From: an uncultured Bacilli bacterium
GTDB lineage: Bacteria; Bacillota_I; Bacilli_A; RF39; UBA660
NCBI GenBank assembly: GCA_947624135.1
Contig: CANQIV010000006.1
Span: 1 to 32,981 of the forward strand
Length of the DNA stretch: 32,981 bases
Reading direction: 5' to 3'
Made by a program: the position numbers and the translations under genes. The notes under the pieces were generated by a model. It was given only the letters and a program-made list of their open reading frames with translations, did not search any database and had not been told where the DNA came from. Below, one piece after another: positions 30,244 to 32,981 of the stretch; position 1 is the stretch's first letter, and each line of letters starts with the position of its first letter.

Positions 30244-32019
30244 TTAACGAATATCTACACTATTATTATATTTTTTTATCGTTGTTGTATTATAGTTTAT
30301 GTTTTCATCACACCACTCTTTTGTTGGTTCATTTCCTTTCCCAAATATTTCTGTTAAATCTAAAAGCATTACATCATCAAAATAGTATGGATTTTCATTA
30401 TCAAGTGTAGTGTCTAAAGGTTTTTCTATTCCCAATCTAAAATATACATTACGAGTAAGCTTTGCATTAAAATAAAAACTTGATTTTACCCAATTTGAAT
30501 TTGAGTTGGTTGATTTACTACCACATGTTATTCCTCCTGTAGCCCAATCAGAAGAATAACATCCAAAAATACACTTAGTTCTAGATTTGCAATAAGATGT
30601 ACCATAATATATATGGCCTTCAGTGATATTATTTATTAATTTTGTTGCTCCACATCCCCATTGTTCTTCTGAACTTACAATTGGTATAATTTTTAAGCTT
30701 TTTTCTCCCGTTACATGCTCATTTGTTGTAAATTCTATTTTTTCTATATTTTCTTTCAGTGAAATGCTAAATTCACCTTTTTCAAAAGACCCATCAGGAA
30801 ATAAATTATTTATTGTAAAAGTTTCTTCACTAGCTATAGTTGTTATATTTATTTCATTACTTTCACTTATATTTTCTAAACTATCTTTTACTTTTATTTT
30901 TTGTTTCCCATTTTGATTATATATACATTCATTTTGATTTTGCCAAGTTGTTCCATCATCACATGAATATTTTATTTCTCCTACACCTGAATCACTAGCT
31001 GTTATTTTTATTATTTTTCTATTTGATTGTACATTATCATTTCCTTCTATTTTTTCTATTGTTGGAGCCATATTATCTATATTAGTTATTGCTAGTGATT
31101 TTGATATTATTGTCTCTTCTCCATCCATTAATACTGCCGTAAGCGTTCCATTTTTTGCTGATATTGTTGTTGTTACTTTATCTCCATCTACACTTACATC
31201 TGCTTCTACAAATTCTCCACTATCCCACCTATATTTATATGTAACATTATCAAGTTTTGGATATGTGATTGTTACTGTTCCTTCTTTTATATATTCATCT
31301 TTTGGATTTAATTCTAATTTTATTCCTTCTACTTTTTCTGTACTTACTGTTTTTGTTATTTCTTTTGTTAATCCTACTTTGTTTTTTACTATTACTTTTA
31401 TTTTATATTCTGTATCTATTTTTAATTTATCAAATGTATATGTATTTTCTTTTATGTTATTTATTTCTTTTTTATATTCTTCGGGTTCCAATATTTGATA
31501 ACTATAACTTGTTGGTACTCCATCTATTGTTTCTACTGTTACTACTAAACTCCTTGCATTAGTAATTACATTTACGTTTATTTCTAATCTATTAGCTAGT
31601 AAATCTTCTACTGTTCCTTTAAGCATGCTTAAATCATCTAGTGTTCCTTCCGCACTATATGTCCCATCGGTTACCTCTTTTAATTCTACTTTACCTTCTT
31701 CATTTAAGAATACTTTACCTTTTAGATTTTTAGAATCAAGAGGTAGTTTACTTATATCTATTTCTGTTCCGGGTTCAATATTATTTTGAGCAGCATATAA
31801 TTCGTATGCGTGTTCTATATTATTTAGACTTATTTTAAATGCTTTATATTTTGAATCGTTTATTACTCCCAAAATTATTGGAGTAGCTATGACCGCTATT
31901 ATAGCTAATATTACTATTACAGCTAAAAGTTCTATTAGGGTGAACGCCTTTACTTTTCTAGTGTAAAGTACCCCCCCCCTACTCATATTTGTTTGTTTTT
32001 TCTCTTTCATATTTTCCAT
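30244..32019 (-). CDS. Prepilin-type N-terminal cleavage/methylation protein with large adhesin-like ectodomain
   Basis: 591 aa; KVKAFTLIELLAVIVILAIIAVIATPIILGVINDSK, FN3/Ig-like repeats, Cys-containing carbohydrate-binding-like region, C-terminal YYFDDVMLLDLTEIFGKGNEPTKEW. Actual start is probably the ATG at 32010 (MKEKK), better spaced from AAAGGATGG. Confidence 0.88.
   Translation of the reverse strand: MENMKEKKQTNMSRGGVLYTRKVKAFTLIELLAVIVILAIIAVIATPIILGVINDSKYKAFKISLNNIEHAYELYAAQNNIEPGTEIDISKLPLDSKNLKGKVFLNEEGKVELKEVTDGTYSAEGTLDDLSMLKGTVEDLLANRLEINVNVITNARSLVVTVETIDGVPTSYSYQILEPEEYKKEINNIKENTYTFDKLKIDTEYKIKVIVKNKVGLTKEITKTVSTEKVEGIKLELNPKDEYIKEGTVTITYPKLDNVTYKYRWDSGEFVEADVSVDGDKVTTTISAKNGTLTAVLMDGEETIISKSLAITNIDNMAPTIEKIEGNDNVQSNRKIIKITASDSGVGEIKYSCDDGTTWQNQNECIYNQNGKQKIKVKDSLENISESNEINITTIASEETFTINNLFPDGSFEKGEFSISLKENIEKIEFTTNEHVTGEKSLKIIPIVSSEEQWGCGATKLINNITEGHIYYGTSYCKSRTKCIFGCYSSDWATGGITCGSKSTNSNSNWVKSSFYFNAKLTRNVYFRLGIEKPLDTTLDNENPYYFDDVMLLDLTEIFGKGNEPTKEWCDENINYNTTTIKKYNNSVDIR
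31971..31979 (-). repeat. Homopolymeric G9 tract (coding strand) inside the prepilin-like ORF
   Basis: Coding strand ATG AGT AGG GGG GGG GTA CTT; nine consecutive G in an AT-rich genome. Confidence 0.97.
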
Positions 32020-32114: not shown

Positions 32115-32140
32115 AACTACATAAGTTACCTTATGTAGTT
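32115..32140 (-). terminator. Perfect hairpin at the 3' end of the CLec-like gene (terminator and/or DGR-type target hairpin)
   Basis: Minus strand AACTACATAAG-GTAA-CTTATGTAGTT followed by TTTG; 11-bp perfect stem, 4-nt loop, contains the stop codon TAA (32131-32133). Confidence 0.8.
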
Positions 32141-32981
32141 GGAACCAATACAACACGGAACGAATCAATACTATTGAATTCATAATCGTGGTAGGCCGCA
32201 CCTGCGAATACTCCTACTCGAGTATCGTCGTGATAACAACCACCTCGTATAAACCACGGAAGGTCTGAGGAAATAGATATTTTAAAATCACCATACCAAC
32301 CTGCAGTTTCTGAAAGTGCATGTCCATAACATACTTTTCCACCACATTCCTCTGCTGAAATAGTACTTGTATAACTATCATAGTATTTTGAATCTATTTT
32401 TTGTGTGAATTCTGCATAATTTGTAGTTGATGATGAACCCCATGGTAATTTTAAATCTGAATTTACTTGATATGCAGGTTCATAATATGCCATTACATAT
32501 TCCCATGCTCCTCCACTCATATCATATATTCCTGTTATGTTTCCTGTTGTCGATTGTGCTACATTTATTACATAATTTCCTCCACCTGTTAAATAACTAC
32601 TATTATCATTTTTTGTAACTTCTTTATTTATCCCATATTTGCTTTGTGATAAATATGCTGCTGCTCCCCATTCACTATTCTTCATCATATGTAAATCTCC
32701 AGGTATATTTAATTTTTTATCCATTGATTGTGTTGCATAAAAGAAATTTGATATATTATTATATCTTAATGATTCCATATTTGGTAATATTCTAAGTCCA
32801 TCTGCATTCGTACAATTTTTATCACTACAACCTAAATTATTAACATCTCTAGATACAGATAACGTTGTATGACTTGTTTCAAACTTTCCTACCCATATTC
32901 CTGATAATTCTTCTGTTCCAAATGTAAATGCTGGATGTACTCTATATCCACTACTATTTGCATTTTCATATACTACATCTT
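32131..32981 (-). CDS. CLec/FGE-sulfatase-like surface protein, 5'-truncated by the window edge; candidate DGR variable protein
   Basis: Frame is open from the window edge (DVVYENANSSGYRVHPAFTFGTEELSGIWVGKFETS...GLRILPNMESLRYNN), so the track's start at 32778 is an internal Met; YDMSGGAWEYVM, C-terminal LPWFIRGGCYHDDTRVGVFAGAAYHDYEFNSIDSFRVVLVPTT. Confidence 0.85.
   Translation of the reverse strand, partial: DVVYENANSSGYRVHPAFTFGTEELSGIWVGKFETSHTTLSVSRDVNNLGCSDKNCTNADGLRILPNMESLRYNNISNFFYATQSMDKKLNIPGDLHMMKNSEWGAAAYLSQSKYGINKEVTKNDNSSYLTGGGNYVINVAQSTTGNITGIYDMSGGAWEYVMAYYEPAYQVNSDLKLPWGSSSTTNYAEFTQKIDSKYYDSYTSTISAEECGGKVCYGHALSETAGWYGDFKISISSDLPWFIRGGCYHDDTRVGVFAGAAYHDYEFNSIDSFRVVLVPTT

Follow-up and report, generated by a model that had tools for sequence, protein, structure and literature searches.

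A probable orphan target of a diversity-generating retroelement in a prepilin-lectin gene family of an uncultured gut Bacilli bacterium

The stretch of DNA considered in the current analysis (the window, 32,981 nucleotides) is the entire contig C6 in the draft genome of an uncultured gut Bacilli bacterium. The draft comprises 1.24 Mb in 77 contigs and is 94.1% complete, and its named relatives are uncultured Bacilli and Tenericutes metagenome-assembled genomes (MAGs), many of them of the 'Lapin' series. A gene for a prepilin-type surface protein lies at the end of the window, and the segment at its 3' end is likely to be the variable region (VR) of a target gene of a diversity-generating retroelement (DGR), now an orphan whose fixed codons are drifting and whose scaffold is kept. 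The target in the window has probably been retired. Directly observed are the pattern of change among paralogues, adenine-specific pairs of template repeat (TR) and VR in sister species, the lack of a reverse transcriptase (RT) in the assembly and a template-like relic on another contig, C33. The initial annotation had read the segment as a DGR target; this reading gains from the paralogues and from complete sister DGRs that template the same protein family, and it loses from RT and Avd not being found in the 94%-complete own genome. In the following, G000 denotes the own genome, labels such as G001 or G013 denote sister genomes of the genus, Cn a contig and Ln a locus.

The variable region and its gene

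The features of interest are listed in Table 1. As the contig stops there, the VR gene is open at its 5' end. Its protein matches the Pfam family FGE-sulfatase over the cut-off (E=1.8e-5) and has TaqVP (PDB 5vf4) as its top PDB match (profile E=8e-4, Foldseek probability 1.00), followed by weaker fold matches to PvdO and FGE. The VR thus stands at the 3' end of a gene with a C-type lectin (CLec) fold, the position that it has in DGR targets. A structure model of the protein has a pTM of 0.76 with low confidence in the VR part.

Table 1. Coordinates of the features discussed in the text (positions in the window unless another contig is given)
Feature	Coordinates	Strand	Remarks
Prepilin-type surface protein gene with C-terminal FGE/C-type-lectin domain	32131..32979	-	282 codons visible; Pfam, paralogues, Foldseek
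Variable region (VR)	32134..32256	-	W-F-I-R-G-G ... G-V-F ... S-F-R-V-V-L-V-P-T-T; GC-rich, NNY-rich; homology to paralogues and sister TRs
VR core between fixed blocks WFIRGG and SFR	32164..32238	-	NNY codons (TGT TAT CAC GAC GAT ... ATT GAT); codon list, paralogue alignment
Hairpin at VR end	32115..32140	-	11-bp stem AACTACATAAG/CTTATGTAGTT, loop GTAA; overlaps stop codon; short T run after it on the minus strand
Noncoding template-like relic	C33:11100-11260 (L199)	-	a VR gene ends about 0.4 kb upstream
Neighbour gene: prepilin leader, Fn3-like and other C-terminal domains, no VR	30244..32019	-	downstream of the VR gene; N-terminal leader common to the VR-gene family
G9 tract (C9 on the plus strand) in leader codons of the neighbour gene	31971..31979	-	G9 in frame; G8 and G10 give early stops

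The initial annotation gave no strand for the segment; the gene lies on the minus strand. The G+C-rich composition that it had described holds, with 53 of 123 bases being G or C. This is 43%, compared with 31% for the remainder of the gene and 24% for the window as a whole, and a mere 0.24% of the 123-base stretches of the window reach the value of the VR. A recount also bears out the NNY pattern claimed for two codon blocks, TGT to ACT and GCA to GAT, in which T or C is the last base of 17 of 20 codons. Across 22 copies in the own genome the NNY fraction is 0.56-0.78 in the VR against 0.38-0.46 upstream in the same genes, and since the same bias returns in the paralogues it exceeds chance.

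The hairpin at the VR end folds with -13.2 kcal/mol, and the same stem is present in 15 of the 21 paralogues folded. Compared with the DGR target-site form, which has a GC-rich stem of 7-10 bp and a GRNA loop, the position is right, the stem is AT-rich and 11 bp long, and the loop is GTAA. Its role may be that of a DGR target site, of a terminator or of the two together; use as a terminator is equally possible because a T run follows most such hairpins.

Paralogues in the own genome

A protein search of the own genome revealed about 25 loci of the VR-gene family, most of them 52-73% identical and many situated at contig ends. The nearest paralogues of the window gene are 72-73% identical to it and 596-734 aa long. 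The C-termini of the family retain the pattern PW..RG....G[VI]F......SFR..[LI], and the differences lie between these blocks.

For the six closest paralogues the mean pairwise differences at codon positions 1/2/3 are 0.085/0.065/0.111 upstream and 0.315/0.317/0.131 in the VR, so that positions 1 and 2 differ 4-5 times more in the VR than upstream and position 3 changes at the background rate (these counts, like those of adenine bias below, come from phylogenetically non-independent copies). The variable VR bases of the six number 26, of which 13 are at position 1, 11 at position 2 and 2 at position 3, and among the fixed VR bases A occurs at just 5 of 76. Variation at the level of the family is, in these six, confined to the NNY-type codons of the VR. 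Change at positions 1 and 2 together with A-poor fixed bases is the trace expected if retrohoming had used a template whose fixed codons are free of A and whose variable codons are AAY. The pair L032/L033 looks fresh, with 10/10/1 VR differences by codon position.

A viral origin of the family was considered and rejected, as 2.9 million viral contigs, scanned by protein and by DNA pattern, gave no relative.

DGR machinery of the sister species

An RT profile built from eight DGR sequences, which share GNxTSQ and YxDD-type motifs, has matches in 7 of 16 congeners; other RTs and a broken copy are part of the match in G008. RTs of other types in the genus (motif 4 QGxxxSP or GxxxAQ, or without GNxTSQ) were not counted as DGR RTs. 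The gene order at G013:C36 and G012:C9 is VR gene, hairpin, TR, MutS-I-like gene, bAvd and RT. The small gene between TR and Avd (L185:2260-2622, L187:5899-6261) carries MutS domain I (Pfam E=6.7e-11). Avd is frameshifted in G013 and intact in G001, G008 and G012. The loop of the hairpin that separates VR gene and TR is 8 bases long (CYCTTTTT), and its stem varies in sequence by species with its pairing kept; the hairpin is found repeatedly in the sister cores, where AGGGATTA comes after it.

What the TRs of G013:C36 and G012:C9 code for is the lectin end characteristic of the window's family (NPWFIRGGNYNNTSNAGVFNFNNNGNSNNNNSFRVVL in G013). At these two loci 14/21 and 8/9 of the mismatches between TR and VR are at template A, as are 28/31 (p=7e-16) at G010:C20, which belongs to the same protein family. 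The corresponding values for other DGRs of the genus or family are 13/13, 19/20, 20/22, 14/15 and 13/13.

Some further cores were encountered in the genus. One additional DGR type, found in G012:C28 and G001:C72 (L186, L189), has a VR some 155 nt long, with mismatches limited to A (13/13, 19/20). Broken cores include L188 (G001:C38), where a VR gene is fused directly to the 3' flank of a TR and an RT is present with no TR, L289 (G010:C20), with TR and VR and no adjacent RT, and L285 (G008:C47), with an intact Avd and an internally deleted RT.

Missing machinery and a template-like relic in the own genome

The search for a DGR-clade RT in the own genome, proposed by the initial annotation as a check, came back empty: neither PF00078 nor the eight-sequence profile has a match in G000. 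The window gene is therefore classed as an orphan target and not as a complete DGR. Avd likewise gave 0 matches in G000. In a draft that is fragmented, failure to find RT and Avd says little about whether they were truly lost.

When the predicted all-AAY template was searched in the own genome, the matches were only to VR genes and to the copy on C33. The leader and first 45 nt of this relic are TR-like and its 3' half is VR-like; it carries the hairpin and the AGGGATTA leader as in the sister cores, and a penicillin-binding-protein (PBP) gene follows it in the place expected for MutS-I, Avd and RT. Its first 45 nt, compared with six own VRs, are changed at 30 of 54 A sites against 21 of 216 non-A sites, the sites being non-independent. 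Homologous TRs with adenine mismatches are accordingly present in the lineage, both in the sisters and, against these six paralogues, in the own relic. The A-biased near-repeat that had been predicted for the own genome is thus found in so far as the relic is compared with the six; compared with the window copy the bias is unclear. As RT and Avd are missing and the sole template-like sequence has a VR-like 3' half, the window copy is regarded as an orphan target.

Sequences in which the leader and 5' part of a TR run into a VR flank or into a 3' part resembling a VR, without RT, are seen at G000:C33 (L199), G008:C30 (L131) and G014:C7/C59/C68. Such joints could be due to TR x VR recombination, to homing into the TR or to assembly chimeras. 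Loss of the RT through TR/VR recombination (C33, G008:C30, G001:C38) is an attractive explanation, indistinguishable from assembly chimerism.

Proposed history and alternative explanations

A DGR of the lineage would have transcribed a TR encoding the same lectin end, and its error-prone RT would have misread template adenines while copying it. The cDNA would then have been pasted over the 3' ends of many paralogous prepilin-lectin genes, remote targets served in trans. The outcome would be surface proteins of one family that have a fixed scaffold in common and differ in the ligand-binding face, the lectin face presumably binding ligands at the cell surface. At the particular copy in the window homing would have occurred and ceased, after which its fixed codons would drift to A- and T-ending synonyms with the protein scaffold retained. 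The A-containing fixed codons of its VR are ATA, CGA, GTA, GGA and GCA.

Several results weigh against this history, besides the missing RT and Avd. Between the window VR and each of the paralogues there are differences at codon positions 1, 2 and 3 alike. The window VR differs from the C33 relic at 7/9 A and 15/36 non-A sites and from the G013 TR at 8/13 A against 15/41 non-A sites (p=0.10), with no clear A-bias in either comparison. The relic itself may be an assembly chimera, and in G014 three contigs (C7/C59/C68, L286-L288) start at the same leader and have different VR-like 3' parts or flanks. The phylogenetic non-independence of the codon-position and A-bias counts is to be added to these points. 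Because a clear adenine-only mismatch pattern is lacking, the window copy is identified by homology and looks aged and not freshly diversified. Across the copies the G+C content of the VR ranges from 0.62 down to 0.27 and falls with upstream divergence (Spearman -0.68), and the upstream G+C of the same copies is steady at 0.29-0.34. We read this fall as the ageing of targets that are no longer refreshed by a template; different past templates provide an alternative account of the range.

The chief competitor, which we consider possible and rather less probable than an orphan, is that the same target is still actively diversified, with RT, Avd and an intact TR present in the cell and lost from the draft assembly or the bin. 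The incompleteness of the assembly, with several contigs ending in or beside a VR gene, speaks for this, as do the location of the sister DGR cores near contig ends and the fresh look of own paralogues such as L032/L033. Frequent homing from one template would, however, erase drift, and drift is evident in the fixed codons of the window copy, whose third positions match the skeleton of the six close paralogues at 0.53; moreover, a PBP gene occupies the place at C33 where MutS-I, Avd and RT belong.

Antigenic variation in which paralogues and silent cassettes exchange sequence by gene conversion or recombination, with no retroelement involved, is unlikely. A large paralogous family with flanks in common would suit it, and the in-frame VR-like copy at C33, outside long genes, could serve as a silent cassette. 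Conversion, though, shifts existing blocks and does not give rise to new changes limited to positions 1 and 2 in which the third base stays a pyrimidine and the skeleton is poor in A, nor does it explain adenine-limited changes beside an RT at the sister loci. Ordinary diversifying selection on an adhesin family has a still poorer claim: fast evolution is expected of exposed lectin loops, and a second family of the own genome, ending in G[IL]RPVIT, varies without a clearly GC-rich segment, but selection leaves unexplained the unchanged third positions (0.131 against 0.111), the sharp confinement to the 3' end and the A-specific TR/VR pairs of the sisters. That the gene encodes a genuine formylglycine-generating or PvdO-like enzyme with an end conserved for catalysis, as its Pfam match and the weaker matches to PvdO and FGE might be taken to indicate, is highly improbable.

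Prepilin leader and poly-G tract

Paralogues with a visible start begin with a prepilin leader, in most cases ATGAGTA followed by a G run and then TACTTTACA. In the own genome 38 such leader tracts were found in the consensus assembly from which the lengths are read, most being G10, five G8 and four G9. G9 is in frame and reads MSRGGVLYTRKVKAFTLIEL, and G10 and G8 lead to a stop within about 12 codons. As a TGA overlaps the ATG, the G10 state has no start in the prepilin frame. For the VR gene of the window the start is cut off by the contig end; all VR genes with visible tract and start (14/14) are G10 or G8, hence out of frame in the consensus. The downstream frames of these 14 are intact over about 570-790 codons, which fits a reversible switch and not decay. 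The leader family therefore combines a coding homopolymer at the 5' end, lengths that switch the frame and an intact downstream frame, and its genes would be subject to poly-G switching, judging from these sequences.

Among the sister loci a tract of G8 or longer is located within 250 bases upstream of 8 of 30 visible starts, compared with 20 G/C tracts in 582 kb overall, and 4 of the 8 lie between TTGAC-type and TATAAT-like boxes. In sister MAGs, L110, L113, L118 and L153 have G10-G11 between a TTGACA-like -35 and a TATAAT/TAGAAT-like -10 box upstream of prepilin-VR genes. The promoter tracts of the sisters suggest transcriptional rather than translational switching.

We lean towards a surface variation of two layers, in which about 38 genes have one prepilin leader and many have DGR-type lectin ends: slippage would pick the member displayed and retrohoming would alter its binding. 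Nearly all readable members are out of frame (G10 or G8) and few in frame (G9), and the tracts between -35 and -10 boxes in some sisters would be a second route.

The second prepilin-leader family (own loci L325, L327, L343, L344 and L350) has poly-G leaders and variable ends of the form ...W.V..G...G[IL]RPVIT, and resembles the targets of other DGRs in the genus. It is not claimed to be DGR-diversified because a consistently GC-rich, NNY-strong segment is lacking.

Comparison with known systems

The TvpA-type targets of Treponema denticola, as far as they are described in the relevant passages of PMC4891356, resemble those found here in their FGE/CLec domain and in occurring as several remote copies per genome. 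According to the same passages, isolates of T. denticola retain leftover target genes without RT and TR, which provides a precedent for an unrefreshed target like that in the window. They give 2-7 targets for T. denticola, compared with about 25 in the 1.24 Mb of the present genome, and mention no poly-G tract, in contrast to the tract found here. The T. denticola targets have lipoprotein anchors, according to a passage in PMC10907252, in place of the prepilin leaders seen here.

TaqVP of Thermus aquaticus (PDB 5VF4, PMC6328139) is the closest solved structure and likewise an FGE-subtype CLec protein with a C-terminal VR; it is about 21% identical to the window protein, has a single domain and lacks a prepilin leader. 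The Bordetella phage BPP-1 (PMC3240598) also has a hairpin at the 3' end of the VR that overlaps the stop codon, and the sisters follow its TR-Avd-RT logic. In contrast to its hairpin with a GRNA loop, the stems here are AT-rich, the loops vary (GTAA in the window) and a T run follows most of them; BPP-1 is moreover phage-borne and the present system is cellular. The multi-locus DGRs of Thiohalocapsa PB-PSB1 (PMC10907252) are comparable in having targets at loci without RT or TR, some of which are best explained by diversification in trans, and they differ in that the targets are NTPase-linked sensors and not surface proteins with a prepilin leader. No paper that pairs DGR diversification with poly-G phase variation was found among the open-licence literature searched. 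Each piece of the system is of a known kind; new are the size of the family, the series of relics and the possible coupling to poly-G.

Biological meaning

DGR targets in cells are rarely understood. The genus considered here forms a natural series: in some species the DGRs are complete, in others the cores are split or partial, and others again hold many orphan targets. Sequence data from it can therefore show the fate of a hypervariable repertoire after the loss of its mutator. Should the poly-G switch be real, targeted hypermutation and phase variation would act on the same surface proteins in a gut bacterium of small genome.
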